Of a stretch of 64,000 nucleotides of DNA, positions 3,373-11,705 are shown one piece after another. The DNA comes from Gemmatimonadota bacterium. Lineage in GTDB: Bacteria; Gemmatimonadota; Gemmatimonadetes; Longimicrobiales; Gaopeijiaceae. How positions within the stretch are numbered: the stretch's first letter is position 1; every line of letters starts with the position of its first letter. The stretch spans positions 1 to 64,000 of the forward strand of contig VXMI01000047.1 in the NCBI GenBank assembly GCA_009841165.1, given 5' to 3'. Under the pieces are notes generated by a model. It was not told the origin of the DNA, searched no databases, and was given only the letters and a program-made list of their open reading frames with translations. The translations under genes and the position numbers were made by a program.

Positions 3373-5001
3373 ATGTCCGGAACGATTCGTGTTCCCCCGC
3401 CCGTCAACGAACCCATCTTCCCGTACACGCCGTGCTCGCCGGAGCGTGCCGAACTGAAGGCCGCCCTGAACGAGATGAGCAGCCAGGAGGTGGATATCCC
3501 CGTCATCATCGGAGGCCGGGAAATCCGCACCGGGAAGACCCACGAGATTCACGCCCCCCACGACCACGGACTCCGACTGGGCCTCTGGCACGAGGGAGGC
3601 GCTGCCGAGGCGCGACAGGCGATCGCCGATACGCTCGAGGCGCAGAGGGAGTGGGCATCATGGCCCTGGGAGGACCGCGCGGCCGTGTTTCTGCGCGCGG
3701 CCGAGTTGCTCTCCACGACGTGGCGGGCACGGCTGAACGCAGCCACCATGCTCGGGCAGAGCAAGAATGCATTCCAGTCCGAGATCGACGCCGCTTGCGA
3801 GATCATCGACTTCTTCCGCTTCGGCGCACACTTCGCCGAGCGCGTCTTCAGCCAGCAGCCCCATTCGGAGAAGGGAGTCTGGAACCGCACCGACTACCGG
3901 CCGCTCGAGGGGTTCGTCTATGCGGTGAGCCCCTTCAACTTCACCGCCATCGGAGCCAACCTCGCCGGAATCCCGGCCATGGTCGGGTGCGCAGTGCTGT
4001 GGAAGCCTTCCAAGCACGCCGTCCTCTCGGGCTATCACACCTACAGGCTCCTGGAAGAAGCGGGCCTGCCCCCGGGGGTCATCAACTTCGTGCCGGGCAA
4101 TCCGGTGGAGATCACGGCCGCCGCGCTGGAGCACCGGGATTTCGCGGGGTTGCACTTCACCGGATCCACCGAGGTTTTCCAGTCGCTCTGGACCACGGTC
4201 GGGCGCAACATCGCATCGTACCGCACCTATCCCCGCCTTGTGGGCGAGACGGGGGGCAAGGACTTCATCCTCGCGCATCCGTCCGGGGATGCGGACGCCG
4301 TGCGCACGGCCATCGTGCGTGGTGCCTTCGAATACCAGGGGCAAAAGTGCTCGGCGGCTTCCCGGGCCTACGTCCCCGCGTCGATGTGGAAGGGGATGAA
4401 GGACCAGCTCGTCGCCGAGACGGACGGCCTCTCGATGGGCGATCCCGCGGACTTTCGCAACTTCGTCAACGCCGTGATCGACCGCGGGGCGTTCGATTCG
4501 ATCACCGGGTACATCCGGCGTGCGAAAGCCGGCGCCGACGCCGAGGTGATCGCGGGGGGGCGGTATTCGGACGCGGACGGGTTCTTCATCCGTCCGACGA
4601 TCGTCCACGCGAAGCGGCCGGATCACGAGACGATGTGCGACGAGATCTTCGGGCCGGTCATGTCGATCCACGTGTACCCGGACAGTGCCTGGTCGGAGAC
4701 GCTGGACATCGTGGACTCGACATCGCCGTATGCACTGACCGGGGCGGTGTTCGCGCGGGACCGCGCGGCCGTGCGCGAGGCGATGGGCCGGCTGCGCCAT
4801 GCCGCGGGCAACTTCTACATCAACGACAAGCCGACCGGCGCGGTGGTGGGCCAGCAGCCCTTCGGAGGCGGCAGGGCATCCGGAACCAACGACAAGGCCG
4901 GGTCCGCGGCCAACATCGCCAGGTGGCTGTCGCCGCGGAGCATCAAGGAGAACCTGGTGCCTCCGACGAGCTACGAATACCCGTTCATGGCAGAGGAGTA
5001 G
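3373..5001 (+). CDS. pruA: L-glutamate gamma-semialdehyde (P5C) dehydrogenase
   Basis: 542 residues, the length of the monofunctional ALDH4A1/RocA-like enzymes. It oxidises glutamate-5-semialdehyde to glutamate with NAD+, the last step of proline (and arginine) breakdown. Key motifs: SPFNFTAIG (185-193), WKPSKHAVLSG (210-220), the HFTGST Rossmann turn (261-266), catalytic GETGGKD (Glu292) and YQGQKCSAASR (Cys326), then EIFGPV. The N-terminal segment (NEPIFPYTPCSPER) matches the family's extended N-terminus, supporting the ATG at 3373. No proline dehydrogenase gene is next to it. Its stop overlaps the convergent PLP-enzyme gene by 17 bp. Confidence 0.93.
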   Translation: MSGTIRVPPPVNEPIFPYTPCSPERAELKAALNEMSSQEVDIPVIIGGREIRTGKTHEIHAPHDHGLRLGLWHEGGAAEARQAIADTLEAQREWASWPWEDRAAVFLRAAELLSTTWRARLNAATMLGQSKNAFQSEIDAACEIIDFFRFGAHFAERVFSQQPHSEKGVWNRTDYRPLEGFVYAVSPFNFTAIGANLAGIPAMVGCAVLWKPSKHAVLSGYHTYRLLEEAGLPPGVINFVPGNPVEITAAALEHRDFAGLHFTGSTEVFQSLWTTVGRNIASYRTYPRLVGETGGKDFILAHPSGDADAVRTAIVRGAFEYQGQKCSAASRAYVPASMWKGMKDQLVAETDGLSMGDPADFRNFVNAVIDRGAFDSITGYIRRAKAGADAEVIAGGRYSDADGFFIRPTIVHAKRPDHETMCDEIFGPVMSIHVYPDSAWSETLDIVDSTSPYALTGAVFARDRAAVREAMGRLRHAAGNFYINDKPTGAVVGQQPFGGGRASGTNDKAGSAANIARWLSPRSIKENLVPPTSYEYPFMAEE

Positions 5002-6184
5002 CCAACGGCAAGGCGGCGGCGACCGCCGCGCTGAAGTCGGCCTTGAGATCCTCCAGGTCCTCGAGTCCGACCGAGATGCGCACGAATCCGTCGGGGATTC
5101 CGAGCGCGTGCCGCTCGGCGCTGCTCAGGTCCACGTGCGAGGTGTGACGCGGCTGTGAAACCAGCGTCTCCACGCCGCCCAGCGACGGCGCCGGCGCGGC
5201 GAGCCGCAGATGCGAGCAGAAGCGGTCGGCGGCCTCGCCCCCTCCCTCCAGCACGATCGACACCATGCCGCCGTACCCGTTCAGCAGACGCGCTGCGCAC
5301 TCGTGGTCCGGGTGGGCGGGGAGGCCCGGGTGGATGACCTGGCGAACGCCTTCGATCCCTGAGAACCAGCGGGCGAGGGCCAGGGCGGTGCGGTTGTGGC
5401 GCTCCATGCGGACCGGCAGCGTGCGGATGCCGCGCTCCAGCAGCCAGGCGGCCTGCGGATCGATGGACCCGCCGTAGAGTTTCATCATCTTGGCGACACG
5501 GGCGATGAGGGCGGCGCTGCCCGCGACGACCCCCGCGATCAGGTCGGAATGGCCGCCCAGGTACTTGGTGGCCGAGTGGATCACCGCGTCGACGCCGTGT
5601 TCGGCCGCGCGGATGTTGATCGGCGTGGCGAAGGTCATGTCGGCGGCCAGGAGCGCGCCGCCCGAGCGCGCCGCCCTGCGGGCCGGGCCGACGGGAAAGA
5701 CACGCAGGGTCGGGTTGGTGGGCAGTTCGATGAGCACCACCCGGGTTCGCGGCGTGAGAGCCGCCTGCCATGCCGAGGCGTCGTGGGGGTCTACGAAGGT
5801 GGTGGTGATGTCGCGGCGGGGCAGTTCATCGGTGAGAAGCGCGTGGGTGGCGCCGTAGAGGTGCCTGCTGGCCACGATGTGGTCACCGGACCCCGCGCCG
5901 GCCAGCAGCGTCATCGAGATCGCGGCCATGCCGCTCGCCAGGGCCAGGGCGTCCTCGGTGCCTTCGAGCGCGGCGATCTTGCCTGCCACGGCCCGCTGGT
6001 TGGGGTTGTTGCCGTAGCGGCTGTAGAGCAGGTCGATGCCGTCACCCGGCCCCGACCAATGGAATGTCGAGCTCCGTACGATGGGGTTGACCACGGGCTC
6101 GCCGGGCCGGGGGGCGGGTTGTCCCGCGTGGACCGCGTCGGTGGCGGTGCCCGGGCGCTCGTGCTTTGGTCCGTCGAAGGTCAT
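4985..6184 (-). CDS. Cys/Met metabolism PLP enzyme (cystathionine synthase/lyase family)
   Basis: 399 residues. The start is the ATG at 6182-6184, with GGAG nine bases upstream; a longer frame exists but adds an Arg/Pro-rich non-protein-like stretch. Family marks: YSRYGNNPNQ (tetramer/phosphate loop), LASGMAAI, the Asp of ADMTFATP (182) that holds the pyridine nitrogen, and the Schiff-base Lys in HSATKYLGGHSD (207). SQPRHTSH near the end is typical too. Members are cystathionine gamma-synthase, gamma- or beta-lyase, O-acetylhomoserine sulfhydrylase and methionine gamma-lyase; motifs alone do not decide which. Last gene of the lepA run, 20 bp after the STAS-like gene. Confidence 0.88.
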   Translation of the reverse strand: MTFDGPKHERPGTATDAVHAGQPAPRPGEPVVNPIVRSSTFHWSGPGDGIDLLYSRYGNNPNQRAVAGKIAALEGTEDALALASGMAAISMTLLAGAGSGDHIVASRHLYGATHALLTDELPRRDITTTFVDPHDASAWQAALTPRTRVVLIELPTNPTLRVFPVGPARRAARSGGALLAADMTFATPINIRAAEHGVDAVIHSATKYLGGHSDLIAGVVAGSAALIARVAKMMKLYGGSIDPQAAWLLERGIRTLPVRMERHNRTALALARWFSGIEGVRQVIHPGLPAHPDHECAARLLNGYGGMVSIVLEGGGEAADRFCSHLRLAAPAPSLGGVETLVSQPRHTSHVDLSSAERHALGIPDGFVRISVGLEDLEDLKADFSAAVAAALPLATPLP

Positions 6185-6204: not shown

Positions 6205-6792
6205 TCAGGTGTGTGCGCGGTGCGACGCCACCGCACTCAGAGCCAGGCTGGTGCCGTTCAGGCCGCGGAAGACGAGGCGCCGCTCGGCGAGCCTGGCGAG
6301 CACCGCATCGCCTCGGTCTCCCAGCACCGGGGCGAGGCCGCCGGGTGCGATCCGGCGCCGTCGCTCCAGGGTGCGCCACGCAACGCCCTCGTCTTCGGAT
6401 GCCGTGCCGAGAAGGTGGCAGCATCCGTCGCCAAGGTCGCAGACGGCTGCCAGGTCGTGCCTTCCCAGGACGGCGTCGACCGTGTGACGATGAGCGTCTC
6501 CGGCGGCGCGAAAGAGAAAGAAGGCGTCGAGCGGTCGATCGGGCGTCTGGTATTTGACGAGAAGTCGAGCGACGACTTCATCGGCGCAACTGAAGTCGAG
6601 CACGGGCACCCGTGTAAGGTCTATCAGCGAGACGAAGGGCGCCCCCCCCGCTCCCTTCAGGCACCTCTCGATGGCGTCGCGAACCGCACGGCCCGTAGGA
6701 CGCGTGACGAGGTTGGGCCGCAGGGGCGCGAGGGTATCTCGCAGGAGCCTGCGCACGTCGATCCTGACGGCCTGGGGCCCAGGGGTGTTCAC
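6205..6792 (-). CDS. STAS-like (DUF4325-type) protein
   Basis: 195 residues from a GTG whose first bases overlap the stop of the upstream HATPase gene (GTGA, 6789-6792), a clear coupling signal. The centre reads FVSLIDLTRVPVLDFSCADE, the strand-loop-helix of an anti-sigma-antagonist (STAS) fold, and resembles the DUF4325 proteins that lie beside histidine-kinase-like ATPases. The segment after residue about 90 (LFRAAGDAHRH, RRIAPGGLAPVLGDRGDAVL) is not recognised. Inference: it is the binding partner or substrate of the neighbouring ATPase in a partner-switching pair. There is no DNA-binding domain or sigma factor in the run, so the output is unknown. Confidence 0.7.
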   Translation of the reverse strand: MNTPGPQAVRIDVRRLLRDTLAPLRPNLVTRPTGRAVRDAIERCLKGAGGAPFVSLIDLTRVPVLDFSCADEVVARLLVKYQTPDRPLDAFFLFRAAGDAHRHTVDAVLGRHDLAAVCDLGDGCCHLLGTASEDEGVAWRTLERRRRIAPGGLAPVLGDRGDAVLARLAERRLVFRGLNGTSLALSAVASHRAHT

Positions 6793-7673
6793 CCGATCCT
6801 CTCGGGCAGAATGATGTTGATCTGGGCGCCGGGGAAGACGCGCAAGCCCTCTTCGATCGGTGGCTTGCTGCTCCATCCGGGCGTATCTGCAATGCGCGCC
6901 GTTCCGCTGCGGATCGACATGAGTCCGTCCCAGCGGGCCACCTGCTTGCGGATCTGCTGAATGCCCTGTCCCCTGCCGGTGTCGGGAAAGCGGGTGAGAC
7001 CCAGGAGAAACGCGGCCTCCAGCGCAGCGACGTCCCCCCAGCGCTCGCCGAACCGGGCCGCATGTTCGTCTTCGAGCGACGCACAGAAACCGCGGCCGAT
7101 GTCGGCGACGGCGATCACGGCCACCTGGCGGCCCAGACGCCGCTTCCAGTTGTAGGCCTGGGCCGCGACCCACCCCGGCCCTTCGGCGTGCTCGATGATG
7201 TTCTGGCAAACCTCCGAGAGGATAACCGAAAACTGGACGACAGCCGACGCAGGATACTTGAGCGTGTTCGAGAGGATGGCGCCCGCGCGTGCCTGGACCC
7301 GCTCCACCACCTCGTGCACATCGGAGTTTCTCGTGACCGGGGTGACTTCGAGCAGCACGTCGGAAGGCCCCGGACGACGACGCCACCTGGAGCCCGTGCC
7401 GAACTCGAATACCCGCCGAGCGGCCTCGGAGAAACCCATGCGGTCCAGGTAGCCGGTGACTTCCGGCTGGTCGGGGAGCGAAATGCGGGGCGCCGATCCG
7501 GCTTTCGCGGCAACCTGTCCCGCAGCCAGCAGGCAGAGCATGCCATTGGGGTCGATCCACCGGAGTCTGCGAGCATCGAAGAGCACTGGCCCGGCAGTGG
7601 CCGGATCCAGCTGGTCGTAGAGCGACTCGATGTTGCGATAGTCGAGCGAGCGTGGGATCTCGATGACCCGCAT
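6789..7673 (-). CDS. STAS + HATPase_c protein (anti-sigma-factor-kinase-like)
   Basis: 294 residues from the ATG at 7671-7673; a longer frame upstream is Pro/Arg-rich and overlaps the kinase gene, so is rejected. Residues about 1-85 look like a STAS domain (VLFDARRLRWIDPNG). Residues about 115-290 are a GHKL ATPase: N box EVCQNIIEHA (154-163), G1 box VADIGRGF (from about 189), G2 box GRGQGIQQI, and a final strand INIILPERIG. There is no phospho-acceptor His and no sensor or membrane segment, so it resembles SpoIIAB/RsbW serine kinases more than sensor kinases. It starts one base after the stop of the PfkB kinase gene and overlaps the STAS-like gene by 4 bp. Confidence 0.8.
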   Translation of the reverse strand: MRVIEIPRSLDYRNIESLYDQLDPATAGPVLFDARRLRWIDPNGMLCLLAAGQVAAKAGSAPRISLPDQPEVTGYLDRMGFSEAARRVFEFGTGSRWRRRPGPSDVLLEVTPVTRNSDVHEVVERVQARAGAILSNTLKYPASAVVQFSVILSEVCQNIIEHAEGPGWVAAQAYNWKRRLGRQVAVIAVADIGRGFCASLEDEHAARFGERWGDVAALEAAFLLGLTRFPDTGRGQGIQQIRKQVARWDGLMSIRSGTARIADTPGWSSKPPIEEGLRVFPGAQINIILPERIG

Positions 7674-7674
7674 C

Positions 7675-8652
7675 TCACTGGCCCCCGGGAGTGGCGTCGC
7701 CGGAGGCGGCTGTACGGAGGGCGGCATCGCGGAAGGCCTCGGAGCCGGTGTACCCCACCTTGTCGCATGCCACTCGGTTGGCGCGGCGCGCGGCGGATCC
7801 CGGTGCCGAGTCCCCGAGGACCGAGGCGAAAAAGGTCGCGCCCCAGACGTCCCCACAACCGGTGGGGTCACCCGCAGCCGGCCCTGTCGCGGGGGGCACG
7901 GACTCTCGCGCGGGCGGAGCGCCGTCCTGCCCGATTGTCATGATCTCCGCGCCATCGGCTCCCCGGGTGACGACGATCCTGCCGAGCCGGCCCGCCATCG
8001 CTCTCTCCGCCACCGGCCACGGATCGGGCGCTCCCCTGACAAAGAGTTCGAATTCGTTCTCGTTCATCTGAACCGTGTCGAAGCAGCCCGCCCACCTTCC
8101 GCTCGAAGGAAGATAGCGAGGACTCCGCCGCCCGTCGCTTCCGGTGTCGAGGAAGAGGGAATGCAGATCGGCGTAACTGGGCCCATGCAGCTTGTCACGC
8201 ACCGTCAGGGCCCCGGCGAGATCGAGTTCGACGCCCGAGATGAAGTTGACGTACAGCGCGTCGAGGACGGGAAGCACTTCGGCGATCTCCCGAGGCGACC
8301 ACTCCGGCACCCCTCCGTCAAGCACCTCGACCCGGTCGGTCTGCGTCGTGTAAGTGAGTTCGACCCGGTTGTTCGGTTCCGGGACCACCCGTACCCACCG
8401 CGTGTCGCCAACGGTCGTGAATGAGCGGAGGAACGGCAGCGCGCGGTCGGCCATGTCGTTACCGACCTTGATCACCGGGACCACCGCCCAGCCGGGCGGA
8501 AGCACATGATCGAAGGCGGCCAGAGCGTACGCGATCCCGCCCCACGCCTTCGCGGAGCGGCCCGCTCCCGGAAGATGGATGGTGTCCCGCACCAGCGTGC
8601 CAATAACGCCCAACCGTTTCGGAGGGTTGGGAGTCGATTCAGACGTTCCCAT
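7675..8652 (-). CDS. PfkB-family carbohydrate kinase
   Basis: 325 residues from the ATG at 8650-8652, 14 bp inside the 3' end of the ROK kinase gene. The N-terminal RLGVIGTLVRDTIH and GGIAYALAAF are the PfkB substrate-binding start. QMNENEFELF is the family's NxxE metal region, and DPTGCGDVWGATFF is the second signature with the catalytic Asp in GCGD. The second signature is usually DTTGAGD; GCGD is a known variant. The family phosphorylates sugars or nucleosides; the substrate cannot be read from the sequence. Pairing with a ROK kinase suggests sugar activation. Tightly packed with both neighbours, so operonic. Confidence 0.85.
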   Translation of the reverse strand: MGTSESTPNPPKRLGVIGTLVRDTIHLPGAGRSAKAWGGIAYALAAFDHVLPPGWAVVPVIKVGNDMADRALPFLRSFTTVGDTRWVRVVPEPNNRVELTYTTQTDRVEVLDGGVPEWSPREIAEVLPVLDALYVNFISGVELDLAGALTVRDKLHGPSYADLHSLFLDTGSDGRRSPRYLPSSGRWAGCFDTVQMNENEFELFVRGAPDPWPVAERAMAGRLGRIVVTRGADGAEIMTIGQDGAPPARESVPPATGPAAGDPTGCGDVWGATFFASVLGDSAPGSAARRANRVACDKVGYTGSEAFRDAALRTAASGDATPGGQ

Positions 8653-9622
8653 GGACGGTGTGCCTGAAGACCCCGGCGGCGCCGACCAGTCCCGCAGTGG
8701 CGGGGAGCTCGGACGGGACGATTCGACACGCGCGGGCCGCTGAACGAAAGGCCCGTTGTTCCACCTCGTCACGCAGAGGAGCGAAGAGAAGTTCGCCAGC
8801 CCCGGCAACTCCACCCCCGATCACGATTACATCGGGATTAAGAAGATGGATTAGATCGGAGACTGCAACTCCAATCACACGTGCAGTTTCATCGACTATG
8901 AGCATTGCATATCGATCGCCAGCCGCGGCGGCTCTGCACACCGCTTCAGCGGTGATTCCCGCGGGGTCGCCAGCTGCCGCCGCGAGTGTCGAGTTTGCAC
9001 CGCGGGCGATGCCTTCGGCAGCCCGCGCCGCGATCGCGGACCCCGAGGCGTAGGCTTCTACGCAGCCGCGCGATCCGCAGGCGCAACGCCGGCCGGAGTA
9101 GTCGACGGACATGTGGCCCACCTCGCCGGCCGCGTCCGATGCCCCGCGATAGGGCGCGCCGCCGAGAATGATGCCGCCGCCGATCCCGGTGCCCAGCGTC
9201 ATGCCGATCAGCCGTTCAGCGCCGCGTCCTGCGCCCAGCCACCATTCCCCGAAGGCGAAGCAGTTGGCGTCGTTGTCCAGGACGATCGGCAGCCCGATCC
9301 GACCGGCGATCATGTCAACCAGGGGGACGTCGCGCCATCCCAGGTTGGGCGTCTCGAGCACCACTCCCCTGCTGCGGTCGAGGGGTCCCGGCGCCCCTAT
9401 CCCGACCCCGGCCACATTTGTTCTGCCGACTTCGGCGATCGCCGCCCGCAGCATGGACGCCACTTCCTCCACCACGGCGGAGGGCCCCCGCGCGGGGCGC
9501 GTGGGAGCGCTCGACACCGCGACGGGCGGTCCGCCCGCGAAGGGGACCAGCCCGACCCTCAGATTGGTGCCGCCGATGTCGACTCCGGCGATCCATCGGG
9601 TCCGGGCCCGCCGCTCAGCCAT
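8639..9622 (-). CDS. ROK-family sugar kinase (glucokinase-like)
   Basis: About 327 residues from the ATG at 9620-9622; a GTG at 9676, directly after the lepA stop, is an alternative adding 18 basic residues, and neither has a strong ribosome site. Motifs: ATP-binding AGVDIGGTNLRVG, GIGAPGPLD, VLDNDANCFAFGEW with the catalytic Asp, GTGIGGGII, and the ROK zinc motif: GHMSVDYSGRRCACGSRGC, the CxCGxxGC form. The absence of a helix-turn-helix makes it a kinase, not an NagC-type repressor. Glucose is the commonest substrate; N-acetyl-sugars are possible. Second gene after lepA in the - strand operon. Confidence 0.88.
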   Translation of the reverse strand: MAERRARTRWIAGVDIGGTNLRVGLVPFAGGPPVAVSSAPTRPARGPSAVVEEVASMLRAAIAEVGRTNVAGVGIGAPGPLDRSRGVVLETPNLGWRDVPLVDMIAGRIGLPIVLDNDANCFAFGEWWLGAGRGAERLIGMTLGTGIGGGIILGGAPYRGASDAAGEVGHMSVDYSGRRCACGSRGCVEAYASGSAIAARAAEGIARGANSTLAAAAGDPAGITAEAVCRAAAAGDRYAMLIVDETARVIGVAVSDLIHLLNPDVIVIGGGVAGAGELLFAPLRDEVEQRAFRSAARACRIVPSELPATAGLVGAAGVFRHTVHGNV

Positions 9623-9676
9623 CAGCGGGGCTGCCGTGCCCTGGCGGGCTACCAGGCGCGGCCGTCGGCACCGCAC

Positions 9677-11485
9677 TCACGACTCGGTGCTATCCAGTTC
9701 CAGCACGGCCATGAACGCCTCTTGCGGGATCTCCACCGAACCCACCTGCTTCATCCTCCTCTTCCCCTCCTTCTGGCGTTCGAGAAGCTTGCGCTTGCGC
9801 GTGATGTCGCCGCCGTAGCACTTGGCGGTCACGTTCTTGCGCAGCGCCTTGACGGTCTCGCGGGCGATGACCTGACCGCCGATCGCGGCCTGCAGCGCCA
9901 CCTCGAACTGCTGTCGGGGTATCAGCCTTCGCAGCTTGCGGATCAGGGCGCGGCCGTGATGGTAGGCATTCTCGCGGTGGAGGATGACGGAGAAGGCGTC
10001 GACCGGGTCCCTGTTGACCATGACGTCGAGCTTGACGAGGTCGTTTATCCGATACTCCTGGAACTCGTAGTCCAGGGACGCGTAGCCGCGGGTTCCGCCC
10101 TTCAGGCGCCCGTAGAAGTCGAGGACGATTTCGGCAAGCGGCAACTCGAAGTCCAGCTCGACCCGGTGCGGATCCAGGTAGTGCATACCCTTGAAGACGC
10201 CGCGGCGCTCGTGGCACAGCTTCTGCACATTGCCGATGTAGGTCGATGGCACCACGATCCGCGCACGCACCACGGGCTCCGCGACCGCGTCGACCAGAGC
10301 CCGGTCCGGGAGCTCGGAGGGGTTCTCGACCCAGACCTCGCCGCCACCCTGCATGTCCACCCGGTACTTGACGTTGGGGACGGTGGTGATGAGCCTGACG
10401 CCGAATTCGCGATCCAGCCGCTCCTGCACGATCTCGAGGTGCAGAAGGCCGAGAAAACCGCAGCGGAACCCGAATCCCAGCGCCCGCGAGGTCTCTGGTT
10501 CGAACCTCAGCGACGCGTCGTTGAGGTGGAGCCGGTGCAGCGCGTCGCGCAATTCCTCGTAGCCATCGGAATCGGTGGGATAGAGGCCGGCGAACACCAT
10601 CGGCTTGACCTCCTGGTATCCCGGGAGCAATTCGCCGGCGGGACGCGCTGTGTCGAGGATCGTGTCGCCGACACGCGTATCCGACACCGCCTTGATGGCC
10701 GCCACCAGGTATCCCACCTCGCCGGGGCCGAGGGAGTGGGATGGGAAGCGACCGAGCCGCATGTGTCCCACTTCGGTGACTTCGTAGCGGGCGTCGACGG
10801 TCCCGAAGGCGATCTTCGTGCCCGCACGGACCGTGCCGTCGACCACGCGGATCGAGGGGACGGCGCCGAGGTACTGGTCGTAGTACGAGTCGAAAATCAG
10901 CGCCCGCAACGGGGCTTCAGGGTCGCCCGACGGCGGCGGAATCCTGTCCACGAGCGCTTCCAGGATGGCGCCGATGCCCGTCCCTTCCTTGGCGCTCGCC
11001 TCGAGGATCGACTCCGGCTCGATCCCCATGAGATCCGCGACCTCGTCACGGCGGCGCTCCGGCTCGGCGCCGGGCAGGTCGATCTTGTTGAGCACGGGCA
11101 CGATCTCGAGGTCCGCGTCGAGGGCCAGGAAGAGGTTGGAGAGGGTCTGGGCCTGGATGCCCTGGGTCGCGTCGACGACCAGGATCGCCCCTTCGCACGC
11201 CGCCAGCGAGCGCGATACCTCGTAGGTGAAGTCGACGTGGCCGGGTGTGTCGATCAGGTTGAAGCGGTATTCCCGGCCATCGCGAGCCGTGTAGTCCATG
11301 CGGATGGCGTGGAGCTTGATCGTGATCCCGCGCTCCCTTTCGAGCTCGTTGGAGTCCAGGATCTGATCCCGCATGCGCCGGCGCTCCACGGTGGCCGTGG
11401 CCTCCAGCAGGCGGTCGGCCAGCGTCGATTTGCCATGATCGATGTGCGCGATGATGCAGAAGTTGCGAATCAGGTCGGTTCGCAC
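9677..11485 (-). CDS. lepA: Elongation factor 4 (LepA GTPase)
   Basis: 602 residues, the normal length. G1 AHIDHGKST, switch RGITIK, G3 DTPGHVDF, G4 NKIDLPGA, then EF-G-like domains and the LepA-specific C-terminal domain ending [17 protein letters not shown] and [10 protein letters not shown]. It acts on the ribosome, back-translocating or remodelling stalled elongation complexes and helping initiation. The start is GTG at 11483-11485. It leads a - strand run with two sugar kinases, a STAS/HATPase pair and a PLP enzyme, and is divergent from the TonB receptor gene (220-bp gap). Confidence 0.96.
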
Positions 11486-11705
11486 GTGTCAGCAAGGCCG
11501 GGAACAGGGGAAACGCCCGCTTCGCACATCCGTGCCCCCGGAAATCGCGTTCCCGCGCTCCCGGCCAGCGGGGGTGCCGGAAGCTAACCGAGGCGGTTTT
11601 GGCGGGTCAATCGTGCTCATCGCCTTGACCTTGGGACGGGTCCGGGTCAGCGTGTTAGTGAGCGGAGTTGGCCTTGAAAACCCGAGAGACTGCCCGGAGG
11701 GTCCC

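Follow-up and report, generated by a model that had tools for sequence, protein, structure and literature searches.

A CapK/CapS-like pair of a putative kinase and a STAS-winged-helix protein in the lepA operon of Gemmatimonadetes

The closest described relatives of the gene pair reported here are the CapK/CapS and VapK/VapS systems (Chambers et al., EMBO J 2026, PMC13373217). CapK is a GHKL kinase, and CapS is a STAS-winged helix-turn-helix (wHTH) repressor of immune (anti-phage) operons, with structures available as PDB 9z71, 9z72 and 9z73; together they were described as a switch that places such operons under the control of DNA damage. CapK activated by single-stranded DNA phosphorylates CapS at S54, after which the CapS dimer splits and is released from DNA; CapS S54 and CapK N218 are both required for phosphorylation and switching, and the N-terminal HTH of CapK is dispensable (PMC13373217). 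In the related system, VapS holds VapC. The main text of that paper makes no mention of Gemmatimonadota, DUF4325 or lepA. A literature search found no paper combining Gemmatimonadetes with partner switching, and the literature on DUF4325 yielded unrelated papers only.

The gene pair, its operon and its domains

The window, the whole stretch of DNA analysed here, comprises 64,000 nucleotides from a Gemmatimonadota MAG and contains a minus-strand operon with the order lepA-ROK-PfkB-P0001-P0002-PLP. The features of the operon and of the two proteins are as follows.

11581..11610, minus strand: element TTGACC-17-TTAGCT with a conserved spacer, candidate promoter and possible operator
9677..11485, minus strand: lepA (elongation factor 4)
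8639..9676, minus strand: ROK glucokinase-like kinase, start likely inside the ORF
7675..8652, minus strand: PfkB-like carbohydrate kinase, inferred start at ATG 8652
7673-6789, minus strand: P0001, putative CapK-like STAS+GHKL kinase (ATG start, 294 aa)
6792-6205, minus strand: P0002, CapS-like STAS(DUF4325-like)-winged-helix protein (GTG start, 195 aa)
6589..6591, minus strand: Ser68 codon (AGT) of P0002, motif DFSCADE, aligned with the phosphorylated CapS Ser54
6220..6396, minus strand: C-terminal winged helix of P0002, residues 133-191, degenerate in the window's order
4985..6184, minus strand: Cys/Met-metabolism PLP enzyme, cystathionine gamma-synthase (CGS) family
P0001 residues 1-90: STAS domain
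P0001 residues about 105-290: GHKL domain
P0001 E154/N158: N-box
P0001 residues 191-195: DxGxG
P0001 residues 233-237: GxGxG

P0001 and P0002 overlap by exactly 4 bp (GTGA), a single base lies between the PfkB stop and the P0001 ATG, and a gap of 20 bp separates P0002 from the start of the PLP gene. The plus strand was rejected as coding at the pair locus. A preliminary description of this DNA had given the two ORFs and their 4-bp overlap correctly, but not their strand (minus). The two sugar kinases and the sulfur-amino-acid PLP enzyme that it named as neighbours are identified here as ROK, PfkB and a CGS-family enzyme, together with lepA; it had also reported no sigma factor or phosphatase beside the pair, and the identified genes of the window's operon include none. 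Its statement that no DNA-binding gene adjoins the pair does not hold, however, since P0002 itself has a predicted C-terminal winged helix, which had been missed. With this domain, the output of the pair may reside within the pair itself.

P0001 matches the Pfam families STAS_2 (4.6e-5) and HATPase_c_2 (0.0027), both under the Pfam gathering cut-offs, in keeping with the STAS half and GHKL ATPase half first described. HATPase_c_2 is matched by all 64 aligned P0001 homologues and STAS_2 by 46 of the 64. The predicted structure (pLDDT 88) matches CheA-P4, and the N-terminus of the model matches STAS domains, SpoIIAA included. The STAS domain of P0001 has a DPNG motif, with Pro42 invariant, at the place where SpoIIAA carries DSSG; given this replacement and the invariant proline, it is probably not itself a phosphorylation substrate.

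P0002 alone has no Pfam match. Its relatives match DUF4325 (PF14213) at 0.0012 to 0.099, the best at 19 bits against a gathering cut-off of 23 bits, and its N-terminal domain aligns with DUF4325 over R..G..VR..IE ... SFADE/SCADE. The AlphaFold model of P0002 (pLDDT 90.5) comprises a STAS-like domain followed by a winged helix, and its best PDB match is RsbS (E 0.05, probability 0.93). Ser68 is invariant in 76/76 aligned rows, and D66 (CapS D52) and E72 (CapS E58) are also invariant. Two same-genus loci (L096 and L102) have an in-frame TAG within the matched P0002 stretch, which may reflect a sequencing error or the natural stop codon close to the gene end.

Relationship to CapK/CapS and VapK/VapS

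The CapK profile matches 64/64 Gemmatimonadota P0001 rows, the window's P0001 at E 3e-14, and no shuffled sequence is matched at E<=0.01. Of the 89 P0002 homologues, 54 are matched by the CapS profile at E<=0.01, the best at 5e-12; of 445 shuffles none is. For P0002 of the window the value is E 0.72, which is not significant; this protein is placed with CapS because it is clearly aligned to its family and because the family and CapS profiles align with each other (hhalign, 90.5%, E 1.4e-6, 148 columns, C-terminus included). A profile of the smaller protein gives full-length matches to PDB 9z71 and 9z72/9z73, and one of the loci compared (L208) contains WP_001567865.1, the CapS studied in PMC13373217. 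A PDB sequence search with P0001 and P0002 singly returned nothing relevant. Taken at the level of sequence families, these comparisons argue strongly that the pair is homologous to CapK/CapS.

The pair resembles CapK/CapS in arrangement as well, with a STAS-GHKL kinase directly followed by a STAS-wHTH protein and neither a phosphatase nor a sigma factor adjoining. Conservation extends to the catalytic residues of the kinase and, in the STAS protein, to the phospho-acceptor serine: N158 and E154 of the N-box are invariant (64/64) and align with CapK N218 and E214, and Ser68 corresponds to S54.

The differences begin with the sensor. P0001 starts at its STAS domain and thus lacks the N-terminal HTH of CapK; the position of W68, with which CapK senses single-stranded DNA, is a gap in 64/64 rows, and K237/K239 are not conserved. 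The loop that corresponds to the K237/K239 region instead contains W176 (63/64 rows) and invariant R179 and R182. This exchange of one residue set for another indicates that the sensor of P0001 has changed relative to CapK, and, as the tryptophan that senses single-stranded DNA is absent, the residues give no support to a DNA-damage signal.

The second difference concerns the winged helix. The CapS DNA-contact residues N145, K151 and G169-G170 are not conserved in the P0002 rows, the helix-turn-helix is shortened in 68/76 of them, and the mean wHTH charge is -0.6 versus +1.9 in CapS. Mean identity is 34% in the winged helix versus 55% in the STAS part, making the former the faster evolving of the two, and close P0002 pairs show purifying selection on it (dN/dS mostly 0.05-0.3). 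In families f4, f6, f7 and f9 of the class the winged helix is full-length and canonical, and some P0002 homologues in other families of the class match MarR_2, TrmB or HTH_IclR in Pfam. In two genera of family f4 (L239 and L250) it is almost gone, with the LVTRPTGRAVR and SCADE motifs intact. The lost contact residues, the shortened helix, the charge and the near-deletion in two genera make DNA binding by P0002 doubtful in the window's lineage.

The third difference is genomic. The Gemmatimonadota pair is chromosomal, class-wide and single-copy, and it lies in a lepA housekeeping operon, whereas CapK/CapS lies upstream of an immune operon; no immune operon adjoins the pair in the loci compared, where the neighbours are lepA, ROK, PfkB and CGS. 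The operator positions of CapS are likewise absent at P0001/P0002, where the overlap of the genes leaves no room for them. VapK/VapS/VapC (PMC13373217) is similar in having a kinase without an N-terminal HTH and a STAS protein with a conserved Ser/Thr, but the C-terminus of P0002 is of wHTH size rather than a short tail, and the flanking genes are PfkB and CGS, with no VapC PIN nuclease gene beside the pair. As a chromosomal, class-wide pair with altered sensor and output, P0001/P0002 is a new variant within the CapK/CapS kind.

Distribution and gene order

P0002 is present in 280 of 298 genomes sampled across the phylum. It is absent from all six sister-class (f11) genomes, both f8 genomes and the sole f10 genome sampled; nine further genomes without it are scattered, and assembly gaps may explain some of these. 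From same-genus to same-order genomes, P0002 occurs in 59/59 and P0001 in 58/59, almost always as a single clear copy. In a scan of public genome contigs, mostly from records titled Gemmatimonadetes, both proteins are encoded side by side in 80/80 loci found, and the two genes can overlap in 60 of these. A near-universal, single-copy CapK/CapS relative in a whole class represents a phospho-module that has been frozen while its sensor and output were altered.

The conservation of gene order in relatives, which the preliminary description had proposed as a check, is extensive. Among the 53 loci with enough flanking DNA, lepA lies upstream of the pair in 52, and ROK and PfkB in 47 each; the PLP gene follows the pair in 59 of 67 loci. 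In loci from more distant families lepA is upstream in 12/13. Because this order recurs throughout the class, the pair is confirmed as real and not a product of chance. The same description had considered that the pair might mostly adjoin sigma-factor or PP2C genes in other genomes, and this is not what was found. The most constant neighbour of the pair is lepA, which is why a link of the pair to translation may be considered.

Four records titled Gammaproteobacteria (L033, L034, L035 and L036) contain the pair, with identities of about 48-62%; two of them (L034 and L035) have the whole lepA-ROK-PfkB-pair-PLP order. These are probably misnamed or mis-binned Gemmatimonadota MAGs.

Proposed switch, rival readings and further relatives

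The pair is most likely a serine-phosphorylation switch that has been domesticated class-wide, with a diverged signal and target. More specifically, we give a probability of about 0.5 to the reading that P0001/P0002 is a CapK/CapS-type switch turned housekeeping part of the class, with lepA-operon transcription as its likely output. To what is computed (the domains, the CapK/CapS homology, the invariant kinase residues and Ser68, a single copy per genome, the coupling of the two genes, synteny across the class and a predicted wHTH fold), this model adds phosphorylation, a dimer switch and a target, which we infer. The GHKL domain of P0001 would bind ATP, and a ligand in the groove between STAS and GHKL would lead P0001 to phosphorylate Ser68 of P0002. 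Unphosphorylated P0002 would be a dimer and would use its C-terminal winged helix, most likely to regulate transcription locally at the promoter of the lepA operon, with 11581-11610 as candidate site. Phosphorylation of Ser68 would split the dimer and end this action, releasing a cargo that may be lepA promoter DNA (slightly favoured) or a protein. The partner-switch type of module originally suggested for the pair is supported. Ser68 is also a concrete serine to work with in a phylum about whose signalling very little is known.

The candidate site belongs to a block, TTGACC-N17-TTAcCT, whose spacer is conserved and that is found in most alignable same-genus lepA upstream regions, where the flanks are unalignable; L005, L038 and others have no clear match to it. 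The element at 11581-11610 is the only such site in the genome and forms an imperfect inverted repeat (TGACC..GGTTA). Since the repeat overlaps promoter elements, the site is a candidate operator of P0002 and not more, and the footprint may be solely that of a promoter. A sigma-70 consensus scan of the operon region gave no promoter, so it is conservation that marks the element.

It is possible, though distinctly less probable than control of the lepA operon promoter, that the same kinase and Ser68 switch has a protein-protein output, with P0002 not binding DNA but holding a protein partner, be it LepA, a further product of the operon or a protein encoded elsewhere. The shortened helix, lost contact residues and neutral to negative charge of the winged helix all point in this direction, as do its near-loss in L239 and L250, where the phospho-module is still invariant, and the VapS-VapC precedent (PMC13373217). 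The constancy of lepA is also consistent with it, above all in L038, where the pair follows lepA at 26 bp, none of the enzymes is present and lepA is the sole operon partner left. Against this, the winged helix is under purifying selection in close pairs and canonical in four families. A narrower version, in which domestication took place at the base of Gemmatimonadetes and the switch was kept for core physiology, with a protein target (perhaps LepA) and a new groove ligand in the window's lineage, appears rather unlikely. If domestication and a protein target were both true, the pair would be a housekeeping phospho-switch linked to translation.

A classical sigma-factor partner switch acting in trans, with P0001 as anti-sigma kinase, P0002 as antagonist and the sigma and PP2C genes elsewhere, is very improbable. 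The pair does share with SpoIIAB/SpoIIAA and RsbW/RsbV a GHKL serine kinase and a STAS substrate with serine at the equivalent position, the folds match CheA-P4 and SpoIIAA/RsbS, and the genome encodes two SpoIIE-type phosphatases. However, both SpoIIE genes are on other contigs, each tied to its own HATPase; the identified operon genes include no sigma factor, and the pair has no linked PP2C; P0002 adds its own wHTH and P0001 its own serine-less STAS (DPNG); and no sigma factor takes part in the action of the characterised relatives CapK/CapS (PMC13373217). The evidence thus does not support an ordinary sigma-factor partner switch. The two phosphatase loci have the form of conventional SpoIIE modules, one a response regulator-SpoIIE gene opposite an RsbW-like gene (contig C29, L191) and the other a HATPase-SpoIIE fusion (contig C183, L192).

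Control over the activity of the adjacent sugar kinases and PLP enzyme, which the preliminary description had suggested and which the long-range conservation of co-operonic order would fit, is equally improbable, since the two f8 genomes keep the enzymes without the pair (lepA-ROK-PfkB-CGS in G139, ROK-PfkB-CGS in G212, with no pair copy found elsewhere in either genome at the threshold used), L038 keeps the pair without any of them, and other loci lack ROK, PfkB or CGS (the last in 8/67 loci and in families f7 and f9, where no such PLP gene follows the pair). Pair and enzymes are separable, which makes obligate targeting of the enzymes unlikely.

Further relatives combine the same domains differently. 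The window's genome encodes, on contig C167 (L189, 511-1746), a 411-aa single-chain STAS-HATPase-DUF4325 protein; the gene immediately downstream reads as an asparaginyl-tRNA synthetase. The same single chain also occurs on a Nostoc plasmid (L193). The fusion joins the three domains of the pair, in which P0002 is by contrast a separate chain with a wHTH, and it suggests that a linked GHKL kinase may have DUF4325 as its CapS-type substrate domain. A phage search found no relative of the pair. PADLOC returned weak matches only, including DrmA for the GHKL part, which were set aside as reflecting a shared ATPase fold.

The pair raises the question of whether housekeeping signalling gave rise to immune switches or immune switches to housekeeping signalling. 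Two-gene relatives turned up on plasmids of Nostoc, Vibrio, Enterobacterales, Acinetobacter and others; several of them adjoin genes for type I restriction, CBASS-like genes or ubiquitin-like ones (multiubiquitin, ThiF, E2). The nearest relative of the Gemmatimonadota kinase found outside the class, at 30% identity, belongs to a CapK/CapS-like pair without the N-terminal HTH on Nostoc linckia NIES-25 plasmid2 (L195, 3998-8582). This pair has a CapS-like recognition helix, and downstream of it, after one intervening gene, comes an E2-ThiF fusion gene.
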